64,000 bases of DNA. Source: Opitutia bacterium (lineage in GTDB: Bacteria > Verrucomicrobiota > Verrucomicrobiia > Opitutales > Opitutaceae). The notes below the pieces were generated by a model, which was not told the DNA's origin, made no database searches, and saw nothing but the letters and a program-made list of their open reading frames with translations. The DNA lies in contig JACPIS010000041.1 of the NCBI GenBank assembly GCA_016187925.1, forward strand, positions 1-64,000, written 5' to 3'. Of the stretch, positions 19,019 to 62,596 are shown piece by piece (position 1 is the first letter of the stretch; each line of letters starts with the position of its first letter). The translations under genes were made by a program, and so were the position numbers.

Positions 19019-19927
19019 GCGCAATTCTGCCATCAGCTGCCGGAAATCTTCCGGCAGCGGGGCACGCAGGTCCATCGTCTTGCCATTCACCGGATGACTG
19101 AAGACGAGATGCTCGGCATGCAGCATCACGCGCGGCGGCTTGGGCGAATCGGGGGCCTGTTTCCAACCGTAGGTGGCGTCGCCGAGCAGCGGATGGCCGA
19201 TGGATTTCAGGTGGACCCGGATCTGATGCGTGCGGCCGGTGTGAATCCGGCAGCGAACCAACGAGGCGCTCGTGCCAAATTTCTCCAACACCGCCCAGTC
19301 CGTGCGCGCCGGGCGGCCGCCCTCGCCCGTCGTCATGCGGTGCCGGTGCACGGGATGCCGGGCGATGCCGCGGTCGATCGTCCCGCTCTCGGCCTTCGGC
19401 ACGCCGGAGACGAGCGCGACGTATTCCTTCTGCAACGCGCGCTCCGCGAACTGGTCGGCCAGCGCGCGGTGCGCGGTGTCGTTCTTCGCCACGACGATCA
19501 GGCCCGTCGTCTCCTTGTCGATGCGGTGCACGATGCCCGGACGTTCGACGCCGCCGATGCCGCTCAGTTCGCCGGCGCAATGCGCCAGCAGCGCGTGCAC
19601 GAGCGTGTCTTCGCCCGTACCGACACCCGGGTGCACGACCATGCCGGACGGTTTGTTGAGCACGATGAGGTGCTTGTCCTCGAAAATCACATCGAGCGGG
19701 ATGTCCACCGGCTTGAGCTCGGCCGGCTTGGCCTCCGGCAGCGAAAACTCGATCGTCTGACCGGCACGCACGTCGTCGGCCTGCGCGATCACCTTGCCGT
19801 CCACCTGCACGAGCCCGGCCTCGAGCGCGCGCTGAAAGGCGGCCCGGCTGTGCTCGGGAAACGCCGCCGCGAGCACCTTGTCGGCTCGTTCGCGGCGACT
19901 GCCCGGCGGAACGACGTAGGAGGTCAT
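19010..19927 (-). CDS. RluA-family 23S rRNA pseudouridine synthase (RluD-like)
   Basis: The 305-residue protein has an N-terminal S4 RNA-binding domain (ERADKVLAAAFPEHSRAAFQ and VQVDGKVIAQADDVRAGQ) and a RluA-type catalytic domain. The catalytic aspartate is D137 in VHRIDKETTGLIV. The downstream motifs VRCRIHTGRTHQIRVHLKSI and GDATYG fit the family. Size and S4 domain resemble RluD, which modifies helix 69 of 23S rRNA, but the exact target is inferred. It overlaps the upstream deaminase gene by 4 bp. Confidence 0.92.
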   Translation of the reverse strand: MTSYVVPPGSRRERADKVLAAAFPEHSRAAFQRALEAGLVQVDGKVIAQADDVRAGQTIEFSLPEAKPAELKPVDIPLDVIFEDKHLIVLNKPSGMVVHPGVGTGEDTLVHALLAHCAGELSGIGGVERPGIVHRIDKETTGLIVVAKNDTAHRALADQFAERALQKEYVALVSGVPKAESGTIDRGIARHPVHRHRMTTGEGGRPARTDWAVLEKFGTSASLVRCRIHTGRTHQIRVHLKSIGHPLLGDATYGWKQAPDSPKPPRVMLHAEHLVFSHPVNGKTMDLRAPLPEDFRQLMAELRKK

Positions 19928-20916
19928 GAGTCGTTGCGAATGGCGTCGAGCTGGTCGAGCCAGGCCTGCTTCTGCTCCGGCACGAGATCGGCGACCTCGA
20001 AGCCATGACGGGCCAGTTGGATGAGCTCCCGCCGGGAGAACTCCCGCTGCTCGGCGAGCGCGACGTACTCGTCGTTCAGCGTGTTGCCAAAGGAAACGGG
20101 ATCGTCGGTGCTGATCGTCACCTTCACGCCCGCGTCGAAAAGGTCGCGGATGGGATGCGCGCTCAGCGTGATGCCGGGCATGAGCTTGTGGTTACTAATC
20201 GGGCAGACATCGAGAGCGATGCCGCGCCGGACCAGCTCGGTCACGACGGTCGGGTCCTCCACGGCGCGAACACCGTGTTCGATGCGGTGCGGTTGGAGTT
20301 CGTCCAGGATGCGCCGCACGAAGTCCGCGCCCATGAACTCGCCGGCGTGCGCCTTGGTGTATTTGCCGGCGCGGCGCGCGGCGGCCCAGTAGTCGGCCGA
20401 CCACGGCTCCAGCGGAAAACTCTCCGTGCCGTGCAGGTCGATGCCCGTGAGATCCGTCCACGTCAGCGCGTCCTCCAGCACGGGTTTCATCTTCGGGCCC
20501 GCGCCGTTGTGATGGATGCCGAGGAAAACACGGACCTCAAGGCCCGCGGGCACCGCCTCACGGATGGCCGCGAGCACTTCGCGACCGTCGAGGCCGAGAA
20601 ACTCGATCACGCCGGAGGCGAAGCTGGTCTCGACGTACTTGACGTTCTGCGCGAGATGGCGCGCGAAGATCACCTTGCCCGCCTCGTGGTAGCGCTCGGG
20701 CGAGGTGAACCAAGAGAACGCCATGTCGAGCAGTTCCTGCTCGAAATGCCCGAAGTCGCGGAACTTGAAATCCCGCGCCCACGACGCCGGCGGCTGGGTG
20801 AACTCCGGCCGGACCTGGCGCAGCAGCTCGAGCGGCAGCGCGCCCTCGAAATGCAGGTGCGTCTCCGTCTTCGGGAGAGCTTGGACAAAGCGGAGGAACG
20901 AAGGATCGGTATGCAT
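19924..20916 (-). CDS. Adenosine/adenine deaminase-family metal hydrolase
   Basis: The 330-residue amidohydrolase has the zinc site of the ADD family: H20 and H22 (KTETHLHFEGALP), H190 with catalytic E193 (KAHAGEF), H214 (RIEHG) and D271-D272 (ISTDDPVSFGNTL). The CPISNHKL stretch resembles the SN motif that separates adenosine from adenine deaminases but fits neither form exactly, so the substrate is left open. An aminodeoxyfutalosine deaminase role is unlikely because this window carries classical men genes. It is coupled to the pseudouridine synthase gene by a 4-bp overlap. Confidence 0.87.
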   Translation of the reverse strand: MHTDPSFLRFVQALPKTETHLHFEGALPLELLRQVRPEFTQPPASWARDFKFRDFGHFEQELLDMAFSWFTSPERYHEAGKVIFARHLAQNVKYVETSFASGVIEFLGLDGREVLAAIREAVPAGLEVRVFLGIHHNGAGPKMKPVLEDALTWTDLTGIDLHGTESFPLEPWSADYWAAARRAGKYTKAHAGEFMGADFVRRILDELQPHRIEHGVRAVEDPTVVTELVRRGIALDVCPISNHKLMPGITLSAHPIRDLFDAGVKVTISTDDPVSFGNTLNDEYVALAEQREFSRRELIQLARHGFEVADLVPEQKQAWLDQLDAIRNDS

Positions 20917-20924
20917 GTATTCTG

Positions 20925-20979
20925 CTAGGGCGAGTCGTCCCCGACGAGCCGCGGCTCATCCGGAGGATTCGCCCTACCC
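20925..20979. repeat. Interspersed palindromic repeat with three mini-hairpins
   Basis: Outer arms TAGGGCGA (20926-20933) and TCGCCCTA (20969-20976) enclose three hairpins: GTCG-TCCC-CGAC, GAGCCGCGGCTC and ATCC-GGA-GGAT. The right half (20952-20979, 28 bp) recurs exactly inside alaS at 60128-60155. A variant of the left half lies at 61359-61386 on the opposite strand. The CTA at 20974-20976 is the stop codon of the M29 aminopeptidase gene. Confidence 0.8.
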
Positions 20980-22098
20980 TTTCTTCAGCAATTCGGATGG
21001 ATTGAGCTTCTGCAGCGCCTTCGGGACGAACAGACCGTCCTTGCGGATGAGTTTGTCGTCGAACCAGATTTCGCCGCCGCCGTATTCGGGGCGCTGGATG
21101 CTGACCATGTCCCAGTGGACGGACGACTTGTTGCCGTTGCCGGCGCGCTCGTAGGCCTGGCCCGGCGTGAAGTGGAATGAGCCGGCGATCTTCTCGTCGA
21201 ACAGGATGTCGCGCATCGGCTCCTTGATGTGCGGGTTGAAGCCGAGGGCGAACTCGCCGACGTAGCGCGCGCCCGGGTCGGTATCGAGAATCTCGTTCAG
21301 GCGTTTCGTGTTGTTGCTCGTCGCCTCGACGATGCGGCCCTGGCGGAAAGTGAGCTTGATGTGATCGAACGCGGTGCCGAGGTAGACGGTCGGCGCGTTG
21401 TAGGTGATCGTGCCTTCGACGCTGTCCTTCACCGGGCAGGAGAACACCTCGCCGTCGGGGATGTTGTGGGCGCCGCCGCAGGCCTCGGCTCCGATGCCCT
21501 TGATCGAGAACCGCAGGTCGGTGCCCGGGCCCTTGAGGTGGACGCGGTCGGTCTTGTTCATGAGCGTCTCGAGCGCCTTCATGCCCGGGCCGTAGCGGTG
21601 GTAGTCGAAGGTGCAGACGCGGAAGAAAAAATCCTCGAACGCCTCGGTGCTCATGTTCGCCTGCTGGGCCATGGCGGGCGACGGCCAGCGAAGCACGACC
21701 CACTTGGTCTTGTTCACGCGGTGGTCGAGCACGGGCTTCATGATCTTGGCCACCAGCTGCACGCGGGCGGACGGCACGTCGGAGGTCTCGAAGATGTTGT
21801 CCGAGCCGCGCACGGCGATGTAGGCCTGCATCTTCTGCATGCGCTGCAGCTCCACCGCGGCGCTGGTCTCGTATTGGGCGGCCTCGGCGCCCTGCAGCAA
21901 CTCGCGCGTGCTGCGCGCCCGCTGGATGTTCACATACGGCAGCGCCCCCTGCCGCCGGGCGGCGCGCACCAGCTCGATGACGAACGCATCGGGAATGTCG
22001 AACGCATCGATCAGCACGCGCTCGCCCTTCTTCAGGTGGGTGGAAAAACCGGTCAGAACTTCGGCCAGCTGGGCAAAACGGGGGTCACTCATGCCCAA
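20974..22098 (-). CDS. M29-family aminopeptidase (thermophilic aminopeptidase type)
   Basis: The 374-residue cytosolic metallo-aminopeptidase has an N-terminal Rossmann-like domain (about 1-110) and the M29 metal site: [24 protein letters not shown], the tyrosine in [10 protein letters not shown], and SSVHWDMV with the His-x-Asp pair. The C-terminus is ...SELLKKG followed by TAG. This stop codon lies inside an interspersed palindromic repeat. A second ATG two codons downstream (MSDPRF) is an alternative start. It lies between lpxK upstream and the deaminase gene downstream on the same strand. Confidence 0.92.
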
Positions 22099-53904: not shown

Positions 53905-56900
53905 TCAGCTCCGCGCGCTTCGCAGGCCCTGCCGGACGGCGCGCAGCAGCTCGGTCGACTCGCACGGTTTCGGGAGAAATTCCTGCACGCGGAGCGAGAG
54001 CAGCCGGGGACGCCAGCTCTCGTGATCGAGTCCGCTCATCGGGATGATGGGGACTTCCGGATCGTAGGTGCGGATCGCCGCGATGATCGCCGCCCCGTCC
54101 GTGCCGGGCATCATCATGTCGGTCAGCACGAGCTTGATGGACTCGCGGTTCTGGGCGAACTGCCGGACCGCCTCCTCGCCATCTTGCGCCGTCAGCACGC
54201 GGTAACCTCCGGCCTCGAGCGTGAGCCGGATGGTATTGAGGACGGGTTTCTCGTCGTCGACGACGAGCACCTGCTCGCCTTTGCCCCGGGGCGTCTCCTC
54301 CACCGGCTGGGTCACCGCCGGCACGATATCGGCCCCCGAGGGCAGGAACACCGTGAAGCGGCTCCCGTGTCCGCGCTCGCTCTCGACCGCGATGAAGCCC
54401 TGGTGGCTTTTCACGATGCCGAGCGCGGTGGAGAGGCCGAGCCCCGTCCCCTTGCCTACGCCCTTCGTCGTGAAGAACGGATCGAAAATGCGCAGCATCA
54501 CATCGGGCGTCATGCCCTCGCCGGAGTCGACCACCCGCAGAGCGATGTAGTTGCCCGGGCGGGCGGGCGGCTGCAGGCGCGGATCGCCGGCGGGCAGTGC
54601 TTCGTTGCGGCCCTCGAGGCGAAGGGTGCCGCCCTCGGGCATCGCATCGCGCGCGTTGACGCAGAGATTGAGCAGCACCTGGTGAAGCTGCGTGGCGTCG
54701 GCCAGCACCGGCCAGAGATCCGCGGCGGCATCCACTTCGATGCGGATGTTGCGGGGGAACGTCTCCTGCATCATCTGGCCGAGTTCCTTCAGCAGATGCC
54801 GGGCCTGCACGCTGACGCGCGCGCCTCCGAGCCCACGACTGAACGTCAGCAGTTGCCGCACGATGCCGGCGCCGCGCGTGGCGTTGGCCTCCAGCATGCC
54901 CACGATGTCGCGCTCCTGCGGCGAATGCACCGCGCCCTTCAGCAAGCCGGTGCCGAGCAGCAGCGGGGTCATGATGTTGTTGAGATCGTGCGCGACGCCG
55001 CTGGCGAGCGTCCCGATGGCCTCCATGCGCTGCGCCCGCAGAAACTGCTCCTCCAACTGCTTTTCGCCGGTGACATCCTCCGCGACGCCGACAATGCGCC
55101 GGACCTCGCCGCTGGCCTCCCGCACCGGGAAGGCCCGCCAGCGTACCCACCGCTCGCCTCCGTCCCGCCGGCGGATGCGGCAGGTGACGTCGAAATCCCC
55201 GCGGCGCTGCCGCTCGGCCATGTTGGTCAGTCGCGAGCGATCCTCGGGGTGCACCGAGTCCATCAGTTCTTCCAGCAGGTGGTCCAGCCGGTCGACGGGC
55301 CGGCCCCAGATCCGCTCGAAACCCGGGCTGACGTAGAGCAGCTTCGTCCATTCCGCATCCGACATCCAGAAAACCTCATTGATGTTTTCCACGACCTGCC
55401 GGAAGCGCTCCTCGCTCTCCCGCAACGCCACGTCGGCCTGCCGGCGCGCGGTGACGTCCTGCTTGATGGCGATGAAGTGCGTCACCGCGCCGGTCCCGTC
55501 CTTGAGCGGCGTGATCGTCATCTCCTCCTGATAGCGGCTGCCGTCCTTGCGGCGGTTCACCAGTTCGCCATGCCAGGCCTTCCCGGCCAGGATCGTATCC
55601 CAAAGATCGCGGTAGAACTCCTGATCGTGCACGCCGGACTTGAGCAGTTCGCCCGGGAGCCGGCCCAGCGCCTCGGCCGCGGTGTAGCCGGTGGCCGCGG
55701 AAAACGCCGAGTTGACCCACAGGATGCGTCCATCGCGATCCGTGATGAGCACGGTGTTGGCCGCGGCCTCCAGCGCCGCGCTGTGCAGGCGCAGCGCCTC
55801 CTCCGCCCGGAGGCGTTCGGCGGCCTCGCGCTGCAGTTCCTCGTTGGCCATCTCCGCCTGCCGGCGCGCGGTCAGTGCGGTCTCCATCTCCCGCAGCGCG
55901 TCGCGCCGCGCGGCCTCCAGTTTTTCGTTCGCGGTCTGGAGCGCGGCCGTGCGCTCGGCCACGCGCCGCTCCAGCGAGGCGTTGAGCGCCTTGATCTCCT
56001 CCTCCGCCAGTTGCCGCTCCGTGACATCGATGGCGGTGCCGCCGACGAAGCGGCGGCCGACGGAGTCGATAAGCGGGAATTTTATGCTCAGCCAGTGCGT
56101 GCGGTGGCCGTGCACGTCGAGGATGGACTCCAGCACCTCGACGGGCTGCCCGGTGGTGCGCACGGTGTCGTCGTTTTTCCGGAACTCCGCGGCCACCTCG
56201 GGCACCCATAGCTCGGCGTCGGTCTTCCCGGCGATGTCCTGCAGCCGCAGGTTGAAGCGCTCCTCGAGGGCTTGGTTGAGGTAGACGTAGCAGCCCTTTT
56301 CGTCCTTCAACCAGGAGATGGCCGGGCTGTTGTCCATGAACAGCCGGAAACGCTCCTCGCTCTCGCCGAGGGCGACGTTGGCGCGCACCAACTCATCGGT
56401 GCGCTCCCGGACGCGGTGCTCCAGATCGGCGTTGAGTGTGCGGACCTCCGCCTCGCGCGCGCCGAGGGCATCGAGCATGACGTTGAAATCGTTGCCCAGC
56501 CGGCCGGCCTCGTCGAAGCCGAGGTCCGGCACGCGCGCATCCCGCCGGCCGGTGCGCACCGCCTCCGAGACGCGGCGGATGGCATAGAGCTTCGCCGTGA
56601 GACGCGTGCCCAGTACGCTTGCCATGACGACACCGATACCGATCGCCGCGAGCGCGTAGACCAGTCCGTCGCGGGTGTTCTGTTCCAGTTGGGCGCTGGC
56701 CGCGCGCTGGCCGATGCCCACGCGCACCCAACCGACATGCCGGCCGGCCAGGACCACCGGCGACACCACGTCCGCCATTTGCGAAGTGTGGCTGATCACC
56801 GTGTAGGCGGGTTCTTGCGGCAGGTCGCGGACGTACTGGCCGACGCGTGCGCGATCGCTGTGGGCCAGCACCAGCCCATGCCGATCGAGCAGCATGGCGA

Positions 56901-57177
56901 AAATCAGCTCCGGATAACGCCGCTGCGCCTCGACGATTTCCTGCAGGCCGGCGAGATCGCGCGCCGCCAGCCAACCGGCCGACGATGTGGCCATCGCGTG
57001 CACCATCGCCTGCGCCTGCTCGATCTGCATTTTCAACAGGTGATCCTTCTGCCGGCCGGTGACGTCCCAGACGAAGAGCGACATCAGCAGCGCATGCACG
57101 CCGGCCACTCCGAGGATCAGCTGCCGCCGCAGGCTGCGCCGCCACAATCGGGAGATGAGGCCGGGTTGACGGGTCAT
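53905..57177 (-). CDS. Hybrid sensor histidine kinase with three PAS domains (second paralogue)
   Basis: The 1090-residue kinase is a close paralogue of the downstream one: helix at about 18-38, extracytoplasmic sensor (about 40-168), helix at 171-191 and HAMP. A coiled-coil segment comes before the first PAS domain (about 275-390), another (about 390-460) before two more PAS domains (about 465-580 and 585-705). HisKA has H730 (GVAHDLNNIMTP), then an ATPase domain and a receiver domain with D1020 (LVLTDMMMPGTDG). Its start codon overlaps the stop of the PhnD-like lipoprotein gene, so the two proteins probably work together. Confidence 0.92.
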   Translation of the reverse strand: MTRQPGLISRLWRRSLRRQLILGVAGVHALLMSLFVWDVTGRQKDHLLKMQIEQAQAMVHAMATSSAGWLAARDLAGLQEIVEAQRRYPELIFAMLLDRHGLVLAHSDRARVGQYVRDLPQEPAYTVISHTSQMADVVSPVVLAGRHVGWVRVGIGQRAASAQLEQNTRDGLVYALAAIGIGVVMASVLGTRLTAKLYAIRRVSEAVRTGRRDARVPDLGFDEAGRLGNDFNVMLDALGAREAEVRTLNADLEHRVRERTDELVRANVALGESEERFRLFMDNSPAISWLKDEKGCYVYLNQALEERFNLRLQDIAGKTDAELWVPEVAAEFRKNDDTVRTTGQPVEVLESILDVHGHRTHWLSIKFPLIDSVGRRFVGGTAIDVTERQLAEEEIKALNASLERRVAERTAALQTANEKLEAARRDALREMETALTARRQAEMANEELQREAAERLRAEEALRLHSAALEAAANTVLITDRDGRILWVNSAFSAATGYTAAEALGRLPGELLKSGVHDQEFYRDLWDTILAGKAWHGELVNRRKDGSRYQEEMTITPLKDGTGAVTHFIAIKQDVTARRQADVALRESEERFRQVVENINEVFWMSDAEWTKLLYVSPGFERIWGRPVDRLDHLLEELMDSVHPEDRSRLTNMAERQRRGDFDVTCRIRRRDGGERWVRWRAFPVREASGEVRRIVGVAEDVTGEKQLEEQFLRAQRMEAIGTLASGVAHDLNNIMTPLLLGTGLLKGAVHSPQERDIVGMLEANATRGAGIVRQLLTFSRGLGGARVSVQARHLLKELGQMMQETFPRNIRIEVDAAADLWPVLADATQLHQVLLNLCVNARDAMPEGGTLRLEGRNEALPAGDPRLQPPARPGNYIALRVVDSGEGMTPDVMLRIFDPFFTTKGVGKGTGLGLSTALGIVKSHQGFIAVESERGHGSRFTVFLPSGADIVPAVTQPVEETPRGKGEQVLVVDDEKPVLNTIRLTLEAGGYRVLTAQDGEEAVRQFAQNRESIKLVLTDMMMPGTDGAAIIAAIRTYDPEVPIIPMSGLDHESWRPRLLSLRVQEFLPKPCESTELLRAVRQGLRSARS

Positions 57178-58133
57178 GGCGGAGTTTTCACGGGACGCAC
57201 CTCGGTCTCGAAGCGGGCGACGAATTGCCGCACGGCGTCGTAGTCGGCGTCGGTGGCGGGTAAGAAGCGCGCCGTCTCAATACCGGCGAGGATGTCGCGG
57301 CCGGCGGGCTTCTGGTGCAGCTCGAGCAGGAGCTGGCGCACGCGCGCGCCGAGTCCCGCCGGCAGATCCTTGCGGGCCATGACGGAGTTGTTGAGCAGCG
57401 ACTCGGTCTCCCACATCACGCGCAGTTGCGCCGCTTCGGCCGGATGCTCCGACTGGAAGGCGCGCCACGGCGGCGGCCAGGTGACGCCGGCGGCCGTCAC
57501 GCGCAGGTAGGTGTTCATGATGGCAGACTCCTGCGAGCCGACGTAGCGGTTGGTGATGTCGCGATTCACGTTGAGACCGCGGGTGTGCAGGAACCACTGC
57601 GGCATGATGCAGGCGGCGAGCGCGGTGTGCGACGGATACGCCAGCGACTTGCCGCGCAGGTCGGCGACCTCGCGGATGCCGCTGTCGCGCCGCACGATGA
57701 TCAGGCCTTTGAAATCCTCGGGCTCGCCCGCCATCGCGATGACTTCGTAGCCGGCCTTCATCGCCTCGAGGCTCTGCCACGGGTTGGGCAGCAGGAATTC
57801 CGGATCGTGCCGGTCGATTTTCCGTTCGTATTCCTGGTAGTCGCGCGAGGCCTCCACCTCGAAGCGTGTGCCGGGAATGTTGGCGCTGAGATAATCGATG
57901 AGCGGCTGGTAGTCGTGCATCAGCTTGCTCGGGTTGTGCAGCGGGTGGATGGCAAAGCGCACCACGGTGTGCTTCGCCTCGGCCGACGGCGTCGGCGCGT
58001 AGACCGGACCGCGCGCCGCGTCTTCGGCCGGTGCGGCCGCCTTGCGACAGCCTCCCAAAACTCCTCCGCATAGCGCCAGCAGGGCCAGCAAAGCCCTCGT
58101 CCCGCGCGTCTGTAGTGTCTTTGGGGAAAGCAT
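57174..58133 (-). CDS. PhnD-like substrate-binding lipoprotein
   Basis: The 319-residue protein has a lipoprotein signal with lipobox LGGC (C29) and a periplasmic-binding fold of the phosphonate/phosphite (PhnD) type: RFAIHPLHNPSKLMHDYQPL, then YQEYERKIDRHDPEFLLPNP, GLIIVRRDSGIREVADLRGK, YPSHTALAACIMPQWFL and NRYVGSQESAIMNTYLRVTAAGVT. The start at 58133 is set by the lipobox. No ABC permease or ATPase is adjacent. It overlaps a hybrid kinase gene by 4 bp, suggesting a ligand-binding adaptor for signalling rather than import. Confidence 0.85.
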   Translation of the reverse strand: MLSPKTLQTRGTRALLALLALCGGVLGGCRKAAAPAEDAARGPVYAPTPSAEAKHTVVRFAIHPLHNPSKLMHDYQPLIDYLSANIPGTRFEVEASRDYQEYERKIDRHDPEFLLPNPWQSLEAMKAGYEVIAMAGEPEDFKGLIIVRRDSGIREVADLRGKSLAYPSHTALAACIMPQWFLHTRGLNVNRDITNRYVGSQESAIMNTYLRVTAAGVTWPPPWRAFQSEHPAEAAQLRVMWETESLLNNSVMARKDLPAGLGARVRQLLLELHQKPAGRDILAGIETARFLPATDADYDAVRQFVARFETEVRPVKTPP

Positions 58134-58391
58134 ACGAGCACCACCCCATCCATGCGGCGCCGCGGACCGATCAGGTGAAGGAGCAATCCGTTCGCGCGCG
58201 CTCTGTTCTGCTGGCGAGGAAGTTACCGCCTGCCTCCGTTCGGGGCAAGTTTTTGCTGCCATCCGCGCGCGACATAAGGCCTGACTCTGACGGGGATTCA
58301 AACCGCTCGCCGCACACCCGGCCGGCCGCTCAAATCACCTCTTGCCTCCCCGCTTGCCGTCCTCTGTCCTCGGTTGCCTGTTTTCCGTCCC

Positions 58392-61133
58392 ATGACCTCC
58401 GCCCAGATCCGCCAGTCGTTCCTCGATTTCTTCGCCTCGAAGCAGCACACCATCGTGCCGTCGTCGTCCCTCATGCCGACGGCCCCCAACCTGCTCTTCA
58501 CGAACGCCGGCATGAACCAGTTCGTGCCCTACTTCCTCGGCGACCAGCCCGCCCCGTGGAAACGCGTCGCCGACACCCAGAAATGCATCCGCGCCGGCGG
58601 CAAGCACAACGACCTCGAGGACGTCGGCTTCGATACCTACCACCACACGATGTTCGAGATGCTGGGCAACTGGTCCTTCGGCGACTACTTCAAGCGTGAC
58701 TCGATCACCTGGGGCTGGGAACTGCTCACCCAGGTCTGGGGCATCCCGCCGCAGCGCCTCTTCGCCACCGTCTACTCGCCCGACAAGTCCAAGGGTGACC
58801 CCGCCGCCTTCGATCAAGAGGCCTACGACATCTGGGCAAAAATCTTCCGCGACGCCGGCCTCGACCCCGCCGTCCACATCGTCAACGGCAACAAGAAGGA
58901 TAATTTCTGGATGATGGGCGACACCGGCCCCTGCGGCCCGTGCTCCGAGATTCATTTCAATCTGCTCCCGTCCGACGACGAGGCCGCCGGCCGCGCGCTG
59001 GTCAACAGCTCCTCCCCGCGCTGCATCGAAATCTGGAACCACGTCTTCATCCAGTTCAACGCGAACGCCGACGGCACCTTCGCCCCGCTCGCCGCCAAGC
59101 ATGTCGACACCGGCATGGGCTTCGAGCGCGTCGCCGGCATCCATGCCACGACGAAAGGTTTCAAGGACTTCTCCGCCGAGCCGTCGAACTACAACGCCGA
59201 TGTTTTCCGGCCAACCTTCGACAAGGTCGCCGCCCTCTCCGGCAAGACCTACACCGGCACCGTGCCCACCGAGCGCGCCGGCCTCAGCGAGCAGCAGACG
59301 ATCGACGTCACCTTCCGCGTCCTCGCCGACCACGCCCGCTGCGTCTCGTGCGCCATCGCCGACGGCATCCTGCCCGGCAACGACGGCCGCAACTACGTCA
59401 TCCGCCGCATCCTCCGCCGCGGCATCATGTATGGACGCAAGAACCTCGGCCTGAAGACCGGCTTCTTCGAGCAACTCGTCGCCCCCGTCGTCGAGTCCCT
59501 CGGCAACGTCTTCCCCGAACTCAAGACCCAGCGCGTCATGATCGAGCGCGCCATCCGCGCGGAGGAAGAGTCGTTTGGGCGGACGCTGGATAAAGGCCTG
59601 CAAATATTCGAAGACCGCACTTCGGTCACAACTGCCGAAGGTTACAATGACAAGGGGGAGAAAATCTTTCTTAAGAAGCCGAAGCCACAAGGTGAAGCCG
59701 TGTCCGGGGAAGTCGCCTTCGAACTCTACGACACCTACGGCTTCCCGCTCGACATGACGCAGCTGCTCGCTGCGGAGCGCGGGCTGACGGTCGATGTCGC
59801 TGGCTTCGAGGCTGAGATGGAAAAGCAGCGCGAGCGCGGCCGCGCGGCGCGCAAGACCGAGATCGTGGTGGCCGCCACCGAGGGCGAGACCGCTGCCGAG
59901 GCGACGAAGTTCGTTGGCTACGGCATCGACTCGACCCACGCCACGCACGCGAAACTCGTAGACGTCGTGAAGACCGAGAAGGACACCTTCCTCGTGTTCG
60001 ACCAGACGCCGTTCTACGCCGAGATGGGCGGCCAGGTCGGGGACGCCGGCCACGCCCTCATCGCCGGCCAGAAGATCGACCTCGTCGATTGCGTGAAGGA
60101 CAAGTCCGGCCGTCATTTGCACAAAGTCGGCTCATCCGGAGGATTCGCCCTACCCGCTCCCGGCTCCACGGCCACGCTCCAAGTCGATCTCGCCCGCCGA
60201 CGCGCCATTTCCCGCCACCACTCGTCCGCACACCTCATCCACTGGGCGCTGCGCAAGATGCTCGGCACGCATGTCCGCCAGTTCGGCACGCACAAGACGC
60301 CCGAGCGGATGCGTTTCGACTTCACCCACTTCGAGGCGCTCACGCCCGCGCAGATCAAGGAGTGCGAGCAGCTCATCAACGAAAAGGTCTTGGAAAACGC
60401 CCAGGTCGAGTGCGTCGAGATCGACTACGACAAGAAGCCCGACGACGTGCTCGCGTTCTTCGGTGACAAATACGGCAAGCGCGTCCGCCTCGTCGACATC
60501 GGCGGCTTCTCCAAGGAACTCTGCGGCGGCACGCACGTCGGCACCACCGGCGAGATCGGCGTCATCAAGATCGTCGCCGAGATGGCCATCGCCGCCGGCA
60601 CGCGCCGCATCGAGGCCGTCGCCGGCCAGGCCGCCTTCGACTTCATTGCGAGCAATGAAGTCGCGCTCAAGGCTGTAAGCTTGAAGCTCAACGCCGGGCC
60701 GGCCGATGTGGTGCAGAAGCTGGAAACGGTTCTCACCCACCAAAAGGAATTGGAGCGCAAACTAAAGGCCCATGAGGCCAAGGCCTCCGCCGGTCTCGCC
60801 GACGAGCTCGTTGCTCGGGCCGTGACCAAGGACGGCCAGAAATGGATCTCGGCGGTCGTCACAGTCGACTCGCCGGACGCGCTCCGCTCGCTCGGCAGCC
60901 AGGTGTTGAACAAGCTCGGCGAAGGCGTCGTCACGCTCGGCGCTGCGTTCGGGACCGACAAGGCCAGCGTCGTCGCGTTCTGCTCGCCCGCGGCCATCAA
61001 GGCCGGCGTGCAGGCCGGCAAGCTCGTCGCGGACCTCACCACCAAGCTCGGCGGCAAGGGCGGCGGCACGCCGGACTTCGCCATGGGCGGCGGCAAGGAA
61101 CCCGCCAAGCTCGCCGAGGTGCTGAAGCTCTGA
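58392..61133 (+). CDS. alaS: Alanyl-tRNA synthetase, with a repeat-derived segment
   Basis: The 913-residue class II synthetase starts AQIRQSFLDFFASKQHTIVP and has LFTNAGMNQFVPYFLGD, the C-terminal editing domain and a GGKGGGTPDFAMGGGK tail. The editing zinc site is H610, H614 (HHSSAHLIH), C711 and H715 (CGGTHVG). Two odd stretches are visible. About residues 407-437 form a Lys/Thr-rich insert of different base use. Residues 580-588 (GSSGGFALP) are encoded by a 28-bp interspersed repeat piece identical to one at 20952-20979. The ATG at 58392 is used; the upstream in-frame ATG at 58374 is less likely. Confidence 0.95.
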   Translation: MTSAQIRQSFLDFFASKQHTIVPSSSLMPTAPNLLFTNAGMNQFVPYFLGDQPAPWKRVADTQKCIRAGGKHNDLEDVGFDTYHHTMFEMLGNWSFGDYFKRDSITWGWELLTQVWGIPPQRLFATVYSPDKSKGDPAAFDQEAYDIWAKIFRDAGLDPAVHIVNGNKKDNFWMMGDTGPCGPCSEIHFNLLPSDDEAAGRALVNSSSPRCIEIWNHVFIQFNANADGTFAPLAAKHVDTGMGFERVAGIHATTKGFKDFSAEPSNYNADVFRPTFDKVAALSGKTYTGTVPTERAGLSEQQTIDVTFRVLADHARCVSCAIADGILPGNDGRNYVIRRILRRGIMYGRKNLGLKTGFFEQLVAPVVESLGNVFPELKTQRVMIERAIRAEEESFGRTLDKGLQIFEDRTSVTTAEGYNDKGEKIFLKKPKPQGEAVSGEVAFELYDTYGFPLDMTQLLAAERGLTVDVAGFEAEMEKQRERGRAARKTEIVVAATEGETAAEATKFVGYGIDSTHATHAKLVDVVKTEKDTFLVFDQTPFYAEMGGQVGDAGHALIAGQKIDLVDCVKDKSGRHLHKVGSSGGFALPAPGSTATLQVDLARRRAISRHHSSAHLIHWALRKMLGTHVRQFGTHKTPERMRFDFTHFEALTPAQIKECEQLINEKVLENAQVECVEIDYDKKPDDVLAFFGDKYGKRVRLVDIGGFSKELCGGTHVGTTGEIGVIKIVAEMAIAAGTRRIEAVAGQAAFDFIASNEVALKAVSLKLNAGPADVVQKLETVLTHQKELERKLKAHEAKASAGLADELVARAVTKDGQKWISAVVTVDSPDALRSLGSQVLNKLGEGVVTLGAAFGTDKASVVAFCSPAAIKAGVQAGKLVADLTTKLGGKGGGTPDFAMGGGKEPAKLAEVLKL
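60128..60155. repeat. 28-bp repeat fragment inside alaS
   Basis: It is identical to 20952-20979, the right half of a palindromic interspersed repeat. It is read in frame in alaS as SSGGFALP and lies just before the editing-site helix. Confidence 0.8.
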
Positions 61134-61149
61134 GCCGCGGTGCCACCAA

Positions 61150-61223
61150 GGTGGGGCGGACCGGCCCGGTCCGCCGAGATTGTGATGCCACTTGCGCGGC
61201 GGAGCGGGCCGCTCCGCCCTACC
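61150..61223. repeat. Inverted pair of GGCGGA-type palindromes
   Basis: Unit one (61155-61175) has arms GGCGGACCGG and CCGGTCCGCC; unit two (61198-61218) has GGCGGAGCGG and CCGCTCCGCC. The units are in opposite orientation (GGTGGGGCGG versus CCGCCCTACC flanks). Both stems are intact although one base pair has been swapped. A third copy is at 40530-40558. Confidence 0.82.
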
Positions 61224-61289
61224 TTTCAGCGCGCGGGTGTCAGGGTAATCGACGAGACGTGGAGCTCATTTTTCAAAACTCATCTTTGT

Positions 61290-61339
61290 GTAGGAGCGTG
61301 GCTCGACCACGCCCGGGCGCGGTCAAGCCGCGCCCCTAC
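61290..61339. repeat. GTAGGAGCG-type double-hairpin repeat
   Basis: Outer GTAGG and CCTAC ends enclose two hairpins, GCGTGG-CTCGA-CCACGC and GCGCGG-TCAAG-CCGCGC. It is related to the unit at 32689-32714. Confidence 0.7.
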
Positions 61340-61358
61340 TTCGCTTCCGCGGCCCGCA

Positions 61359-61386
61359 CGGCTCGGCGGGGACGCCTCGCCCTACC
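61359..61386. repeat. Half unit of the TAGGGCGA-type repeat
   Basis: It matches the reverse complement of the left half of 20925-20979. The small hairpin is GGCG-GGGA-CGCC here versus GTCG-GGGA-CGAC there, so one pair has changed on both sides. Confidence 0.7.
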
Positions 61387-61456
61387 TTCTTCGCCCTGCA
61401 GCGGCGGTCCATGACCATAGCCGTCCCACAAAAACTCGTTTCGGTCCTCTTTTGCA

Positions 61457-61544
61457 TGTCATCCTGAGCGCAGCGAAGGATCCACGTGCTCGGGCGCGAT
61501 GCAGGATTCGCACGCGTGGATTCTTCGCTGCGCTCAGAATGACA
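61457..61544. repeat. Interspersed palindromic repeat (HSERSEE-type), second copy
   Basis: Two 30-bp inverted arms (61457-61486 and 61515-61544) differ at only two positions. They are nearly identical to the arms at 38885-38967, while the 28-bp centre is different. Confidence 0.86.
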
Positions 61545-61707
61545 GGATACGAAGTTGGGCCGGAAGTCGGGTGCGCTGTGGGATGTCTGTGGTCCATGAC
61601 CGCCGATTTGGGGCGCGGCGTCATTGGGTGACGGTCATCGCCCGCCGCTACAATGCTCCCTTGCGCTTGCCGGCGGATAGACGGCGAGACAAGTTTCCCG
61701 GCACTCC

Positions 61708-62235
61708 ATGGACTACATCATCCTCAAGGCCCTGCACATCGTCGGCGTCGTTTCGTGGTTTGCCGGGTTGTTCTACATCGTCCGACTGTTCATCTACCAC
61801 GTCGAGGCACACGACGAGGCCGAGCCCAAGCGCGGCATCCTGCTGGAGCAATACGCGCTGATGGAGCGCCGGCTGTGGCGCGCGATCACCGTACCGGCGA
61901 TGGTGTTCACCGCGGTCACGGGCGTGTGGCTCATTCACTTCTTTCCGCTCAAGGACAGTCCGTGGCTGCACTTGAAACTCGGTCTGCTCGTGGTGCTCTT
62001 CGCCTATCATTTCCATTGCGGCTGGATTCGCACCCAACTCGCCGCCGGCGCACGTCCGTTCACCTCGAAACAACTCCGCGTCTACAACGAGGTCGCGACC
62101 GTGTTGCTCGTCGGCATCGTCTTTGCCGTCGTCAGCAAGACCGTGAGCGTCGGCTTGTGGGCGCTGGGTGGCTGCGTGGCGTTCCTCGGAATCATGGTCG
62201 CGTTTTTCCTGAAAAAGCTGCAAGGTCGGGACTGA
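61708..62235 (+). CDS. hemJ: Protoporphyrinogen IX oxidase, HemJ type
   Basis: The 175-residue membrane protein has four to five helices and the HemJ signature: conserved His in YIILKALHIVGVVSWFAGLF followed by YIVRLFIYHVEA, then WLHLKLGLLVVLFAYH with conserved Lys and His. The family converts protoporphyrinogen IX to protoporphyrin IX, feeding electrons to the respiratory chain. It is the first of three closely spaced small genes. Confidence 0.88.
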   Translation: MDYIILKALHIVGVVSWFAGLFYIVRLFIYHVEAHDEAEPKRGILLEQYALMERRLWRAITVPAMVFTAVTGVWLIHFFPLKDSPWLHLKLGLLVVLFAYHFHCGWIRTQLAAGARPFTSKQLRVYNEVATVLLVGIVFAVVSKTVSVGLWALGGCVAFLGIMVAFFLKKLQGRD

Positions 62236-62241
62236 TTCCTC

Positions 62242-62493
62242 ATGGAGCTACGGGCCATCGTCTCCGCCATCTGCGACCAAGCGGATGATTTCCTCGCCGG
62301 CGTCACCAAACGCGACGAGGCCAGGGCCGGCATCGCCGAATGGCTGACGATGAATCATCCCAAGCTCGCCCCGGCGGACAAGAAAGCGGTCATCGACCAG
62401 ACGATGCGCATCCTCGACCACGAAGGATTCTTCGAGGCCGAGGCCGGCGGCCCGGGCGAAGACGCGGGCGACTTCACCGCAGCCGAGGAGTGA
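62242..62493 (+). CDS. Small helical acidic protein, function unknown
   Basis: The 83-residue protein is mostly helical with an acidic C-terminal tail (EAEAGGPGEDAGDFTAAEE). I do not recognise the family. It starts 6 bp after hemJ, so it is likely co-transcribed and translationally coupled. Confidence 0.62.
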   Translation: MELRAIVSAICDQADDFLAGVTKRDEARAGIAEWLTMNHPKLAPADKKAVIDQTMRILDHEGFFEAEAGGPGEDAGDFTAAEE

Positions 62494-62596
62494 GCAATAG
62501 CGGCGGCCTGTGACTGCCGGCGTTGGCCGGCGGCGGCCCAATCCGCCGGCCGCAAGACCCAGTTGCGCCGTGCCGCGAAACCATTTTACTGCGCGC

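Follow-up and report, generated by a model that had tools for sequence, protein, structure and literature searches.

Repeat DNA of several kinds in one variable loop of alanyl-tRNA synthetase in an Opitutaceae bacterium and its relatives

A REP element is read as protein within alaS in the window, by which we mean the whole analyzed stretch of 64,000 nucleotides from an Opitutaceae bacterium. It lies in a variable loop of the editing domain of alanyl-tRNA synthetase (AlaS), and repeat DNA of several unrelated kinds is found in the same loop of relatives. We consider it likely that this loop is tolerant and captures the abundant repeats of its genome, and that the captures survive if the reading frame is open and the length is near that of the old loop. 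Intragenic REPs are of a known kind because they have already been published, mostly for Opitutus terrae. The recurrence of different repeats in one AlaS loop appears to be new.

The REP element in alaS and its genomic family

A comparison within the window showed that 28 bases of alaS (60128-60155) are identical to positions 20952-20979. The match, noticed before in a sequence-only reading, is exact; the 20-base core with up to 3 mismatches is found at these two places only, with 0.00 matches expected (100 shuffles). The following features are considered in this section.

58392..61133, plus strand: alaS, alanine--tRNA ligase, 913 amino acids, with an ATG start (the listed open frame starts at a TTG 18 bases upstream)
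60128..60155, minus strand: REP-A element within alaS, residues 580-588 (GSSGGFALP)
60126..60170, plus strand: variable loop in the editing domain of AlaS (residues 579-593), defined by alignments and an AlphaFold2 model; repeat DNA recurs here in family members
20926..20979, no strand assigned: inverted pair of REP-A units between two open frames; the half 20952-20979 equals the alaS copy
61359..61384, minus strand: further REP-A relative downstream of alaS, with 2 mismatches to the first unit of the 20926-20979 pair

The distant copy had been described as half of a palindromic repeat between two genes, and this was borne out. The inverted pair sits between the minus-strand open frames 19924-20916 and 20974-22098, and the REP-A copy supplies the stop codon (TAG, 20974-20976) of the second one. 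Providing stop codons is a reported habit of GTAG REPs (PMC3733652). A search of the whole genome (4.0 Mb, 48 contigs) with the 28 bases found 43 places at up to 3 mismatches, 8 of them exact and including both window copies, while the reversed control found 0. The repeat therefore has many genome copies and not just two. A degenerate REP-A pattern allowing 1 mismatch was found at 59 places.

The opposite strand of REP-A reads GGGTAGGGCGAATCCTCCGGATGAGCCG, with a GTAG end followed by a hairpin that has a GA/GA internal mismatch. GTAG was present in 29 of 32 distinct 31-base copies (loci L001-L030), a share biased upwards because the search pattern itself contained TAG (2 mismatches allowed). 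Some copies stand alone and others form inverted pairs, among them 20926-20979. Four inner pairs of the stem covary, and the outer pairs and GA steps are fixed or nearly so. In 19 copies chosen by hand out of the 34 distinct ones printed (32 from L001-L030 and 2 from L067), 96% of the cells were paired and 16 cells were changed on both sides, a result that none of 500 shuffles reached. The genome has eight Y1_Tnp loci, and one of them (L067, G000:C5:84498-85030) is flanked by inverted REP-A copies. Its protein matched the REP-associated tyrosine transposase model NF047646 with 91 bits (cut-off 80) and Pfam Y1_Tnp with 22.1, slightly below the cut-off of 23. This transposase between inverted REP-A copies is likely a REPtron, and the REP-A family was probably spread by a RAYT transposase. 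On account of the GTAG end, the covarying hairpin, the copy number and the tests on the REP-flanked transposase, the 28-base repeat is a GTAG-type REP, which we named REP-A. Four of 30 REP-A loci are within domain-supported genes (alaS, uvrA, ade and rlmN). Reading frames were inspected at 11 loci other than alaS, of which 8 were scanned, and for the rest the judgment used only open frame and GC3. The adenine deaminase (L016:103-2079) and RlmN (L021:852-2159) of this genome contain in-frame REP-A, as a two-unit pair by eye.

The alaS product matched TIGR00344 with 801 bits as well as Pfam tRNA-synt_2c, tRNA_SAD and DHHA1. Counted from the ATG at 58392, REP-A spans the last base of codon 579 and codons 580-588, in the frame and at the residues originally proposed, and its TAG is read as CTA (Leu) because the GTAG end is on the minus strand. 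An interspersed repeat is thus protein-coding in the editing region, as the sequence-only reading held. In an alignment of 134 loci, the loop holding REP-A, flanked by HLHK on one side and by the strand preceding the HH helix on the other, varied in both length and sequence. An AlphaFold2 model of AlaS residues 450-759, built with 48 hand-chosen AlaS rows, had a mean pLDDT of 90, and its fold matches AlaRS and AlaX structures in the PDB. The modelled loop (model residues 131-140, mean pLDDT 84) joins strands 126-130 and 144-149. The second of these strands (AlaS 593-598) separates the loop from the long helix at AlaS 600-624, which carries the HxxxH pair. The REP-A residues, which had been placed directly before the zinc helix, end about 12 residues ahead of it.

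Repeats in the same loop of related genomes

The AlaS rows comprised 134 loci from 240 family genomes with a match and 16 genomes from outside the family. Dropping L088, which has no loop, left 133 rows, 117 from the family and 16 from outside; three further outside genomes with matches (G041, G042 and G050) were left out of this set. A loop was classed as repeat-bearing by fixed patterns, which were written from these same loops, or by a lag-7 identity of at least 15/21. By this rule, repeat DNA of several unrelated kinds was present in 41 of the 117 family loops and in 0 of the 16 outside ones, and no loop repeat was recognized in 76 of the 117 family rows. The REP-A residues are not conserved in the 16 outside rows, an outcome in keeping with the earlier proposal. 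The same proposal had called the event rare, which does not agree with the 41 family loops or with the intragenic REPs already published for O. terrae.

Besides the window's genome (G000), REP-A was found in the loops of G005, which has the same form, and of G003 and G174, where paired changes preserve the hairpin. A second palindromic REP-like element, REP-B (GGGAGCGAGCTTGCTCGCGA), occupies the loops of G004, G007, G254, G247 and G232, and that of G235 with an edge change. A third REP-like pattern, GGAGGGCCGNNCTCC, is present in G006 and G176. Other family loops hold arrays of 7-base units (TCAGCNN, TCAAATN, CTCCAAN, GTCATTN or AACTTNA), 8 rows (class h) were classed by periodicity alone, and an Ereboglobus record has TTCACTC-like units in its AlaS loop. 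Named public loci were inspected for 18 of 80, partly from the same genomes as the analyzed set.

Repeat-bearing loops were found in G176 and G160. They are not assembly errors there because both genomes are single-contig, and an assembly artefact was rejected for these two, a rejection not extended to each metagenome bin. Two public contigs, L195 and L202, terminate at the alaS loop or inside it, and the one from Cephaloticoccus primus does so after a run of C; the ends look as if the loop broke the assembly. The repeat captures also suggest that the region can break assemblies and mislead alignments.

Since the patterns were written from these loops, tests less dependent on the patterns sought were carried out. 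Each of the 133 alaS genes was compared with itself at an offset of 7 bases, and the 21-position window of greatest identity was located. This maximum fell in the loop in 32 genes when 2.8 were expected, and the controls with lags of 4, 5, 8, 10 and 11 gave 7, 3, 3, 5 and 4 maxima in the loop, respectively. The loop contained 14 places with windows of at least 17/21 identities, a density of 2.2 per kb. The alaS open frames outside the loop had 4 such places (0.012 per kb), each of them upstream of the AlaS match, and the flanks had 2 (0.010 per kb). In L093, a 7-base-like array is located elsewhere in alaS, at position 2209 of 2673, downstream of the editing loop. Two other genes were analyzed in 30 genomes that had been picked for a repeat-bearing alaS loop, so that alaS counts there are set by the selection. 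No 7-base windows with at least 17/21 identities were detected in leuS (27 loci from 27 of the 30 genomes, loci with a weak listed match to another synthetase being left out). The 30 uvrA loci had 12 array places, in 4 loci, and the AlaS loop is consequently not the sole target.

These results bear on the notion that the apparent repeats arise by chance or from codon bias in a loop that is variable and rich in G+C. The loop is indeed short and variable, and some of the 8 class h rows may be such cases. For the window the notion is refuted by the 28 exact bases and their 43 genomic places at up to 3 mismatches. Moreover, a period of 7 does not follow codons, and there is little or no excess at lags of 5, 8, 10 and 11 (lag 4 gave 7 maxima against 2.8). 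As a general explanation, chance mimicry is therefore extremely improbable. A general palindrome scan of the 133 genes placed 9 maxima (any) in the loop when about 3 were expected, and a 26-base folding scan placed 4 when 2.3 were expected; neither revealed a clear concentration in the loop, and the REP claim consequently depends on the sequence family and the copy number.

Turnover, reading frames and the source of the repeats

A FastTree tree was built from the 133 AlaS rows with the loop columns removed, and 42 of its 130 inner forks are weak. Four rows (L108, L120, L121 and L155) were relabelled by eye, giving 44 repeat-labelled rows compared with 41 by rule. The fewest changes on this tree were 40 for all loop classes and 24 for repeat versus none, counts in which gain and loss are not told apart. 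REP-B is carried by L140 and L147, but an ordinary loop is present in L142, whose alaS gene is 95% identical to that of L140. In the comparison of L140 with L142, the flanks aligned unbroken, and REP-B stood in place of the old loop at a net difference of 3 bases. Judging from these alignments, the REP-B of L140 and L147 appears to be a recent event. The sequence-only reading had considered an 8-residue insertion in the window's AlaS. This does not fit the L140/L142 pair or the loop lengths, which are 15 residues in the window's AlaS, 11-31 in ordinary family rows (12-15 in many of them) and 13-20 in rows whose loop bears a repeat. REP-A most likely replaced the loop and is neither a clean insertion nor something added to a conserved loop.

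The frame is the same in all four REP-A loops, whose readings include GSFGELALP besides the GSSGGFALP of the window's copy. Likewise, each of the six rule-classed REP-B loops has the reading SELARD. Five frames are open in REP-A and six in REP-B, and chance insertion would not favor a single frame per class. The single frames point to some selection on the peptide or to a partly shared origin. In the 29 loops with 7-base arrays, stops block on average 1.8 of the 3 antisense frames and 0.6 of the sense frames (0.7 and 0.3 in the 81 ordinary loops). The orientation of the arrays is largely explained by stops because the antisense is more often blocked.

A partly shared origin could go as far as one ancestral REP-A insertion, and one of REP-B, that was inherited or moved by horizontal transfer of alaS segments and was later replaced or homogenized, with few independent insertions. 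The same frame and register in all four REP-A and all six rule-classed REP-B loops agree with this explanation. Between these genes, 60-76% of third positions agree in shared codons in any case, which makes the short REP-B identity weak evidence of independence. The chance of six alike REP-B sequences was 0.05-0.19, and the third-position test of REP-B independence proved too weak to decide. On the other hand, the REP-A bearers are apart on the AlaS tree, with L032 beside L098 (GTCATT) and L049 beside L069 (TCAGC), for example. The loop form of G003, GTTC..GAAC, follows its own genome, where ATCC..GGAT is found in 0 of 34 exact places, and the several kinds of 7-base arrays require separate origins regardless. 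We regard a single insertion per REP class as unlikely.

The copies of each repeat elsewhere in the genome, with the loop copy removed, were counted in 80 hand-chosen genomes covering 40 of the 41 rule-classed rows (the genomes of L162 and L155 are missing). Counts were made for 5 of the 8 patterns, leaving out the third REP-like pattern, GTCATT and AACTT. The REP-A bearers had 58, 20, 41 and 83 copies, compared with a median of 0 in the 76 others (p = 1e-4). The corresponding figures were 21, 53, 47, 14, 0 and 57 against 0 in 74 others for REP-B (p = 0.001), 30, 125, 31 and 49 against 0 in 76 others for TCAAAT (p = 2e-4), and a bearers' median of 53 against 4 in 72 others for TCAGC (p = 2e-4). 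In these p-values bearers are set by rule, relatedness is ignored and the patterns derive from the same loops; setting the bearers G113 and G192 by eye gave p = 3e-5 for TCAAAT and 6e-5 for TCAGC. The link is weak for CTCCAA, a class that was retained: the bearers had 2, 2, 86 and 3 copies against 1 in 76, so that three of the four had only 2 or 3, and many reversed-control counts were similar in size. Thus, in four of the five classes counted, loop bearers are rich in the same repeat elsewhere. Some non-bearers are also rich, such as G014 (64 REP-A copies) and G189 (80 REP-B copies), TCAGC reaches at least 10 copies in 28 of 72 non-bearers, and a search allowing 1 mismatch found REP-B nowhere else in G235. 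In G000, G003 and G005, the REP-A form of the loop is the commonest in its own genome (16/45, 23/34 and 8/17 exact places, respectively, loop included); in G174 it is only the second commonest (15/67).

These data led us to favor capture by a tolerant loop, which would operate as follows. The AlaS loop accepts many different short peptides, and the source would be repeat DNA abundant in the genome, either REP and REP-like elements or tandem 7-base units. Such repeats would copy themselves or act as repair templates, and their copy number would influence which one is caught. An open reading frame and a length close to that of the old loop would then act as the survival filter. In the window's genome, REP-A would have been copied into the loop between two strands of the editing domain, and it now forms that loop. 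Presumably the repeat was in each case copied in from another place of its own genome, by REP transposition or short templated repair, and the surviving repeat loops are probably close to neutral.

A different role for the site is conceivable, in which the loop is a preferred landing site: the alaS DNA, its transcription or a break-prone site would draw abundant repeats, and the loop would be continually rebuilt with selection for particular frames. This proposal is rather unlikely in our estimate. The repeats could also be kept by selection, with a hairpin or array acting in DNA or mRNA, or with a peptide that improves editing or stability. Their concentration in one loop and the single frame per REP class are in line with selection. 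However, the loop repeats are unrelated and have no evident common structure or peptide, 76 of the 117 family rows have no recognized loop repeat, and no Rfam family was found at the gathering score in 56000-62500. Retention by selection is, in our judgment, quite improbable. The captures in the AlaS loop form a natural series for measuring the entry of repeat DNA into coding sequence, for seeing which reading frames persist and for telling directed from merely tolerated entry.

Related systems and further variable sites

Intragenic GTAG REPs have been published, and O. terrae has the most GTAG cases, with REPs read as protein in uvrA, DNA ligase and RNA helicases; tRNA synthetases were named as REP targets in three other species (PMC3733652). 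In the window's genome, uvrA, adenine deaminase and rlmN likewise contain a GTAG REP, here REP-A. The single same-site case described in the main text of that paper consists of different REPs at about the same recB site of two Xanthomonas species, which differs from the replacement of one loop by multiple families. That main text contains neither "alanyl" nor "heptanucleotide"; its gene list, which may include an alaS entry, is in a supplementary file. Rickettsia palindromic elements, as described in the same paper, are likewise palindromic and in frame inside protein genes. They are sequence families of Rickettsia in many genes, whereas here many families are found in one loop of one gene; the two are set apart by description only. 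Tandem 7-base repeat arrays are known in other bacteria, mostly between genes (PMC4692102, PMC4679880). Their units and hosts are others, and the available parts of these papers describe no repeated capture in one enzyme loop. A search of the open-access literature, supplementary files aside, found no description of the AlaS loop capturing repeats time and again. Repeats read as protein have mostly been reported gene by gene, whereas here one loop in more than 100 related genes records different captures.

A second hypervariable site was observed in alaS.

59607..59708, plus strand: second hypervariable alaS site (residues 406-439); no repeat was recognized in the window copy

Its length is 12-79 residues across the 117 family rows and at least 25 in 39 of them. 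These 39 long inserts have a GC3 of 0.53, compared with 0.83 for the rest of the gene, and few are mutually similar (7 pairs at E below 0.01). A Pfam search of 8 inserts gave no match. L075 and L223 share another palindrome-like repeat at this second site.

A double-length UvrA (up to about 2000 residues) holds REP-A, REP-B or 7-base arrays. The loci are L014 (G000:C38), L309, L311, G005:C265:23981-24004 and G007:C4:272706-272725. The UvrA REP-A copies of G000 and G005 are at about the same place in the gene.
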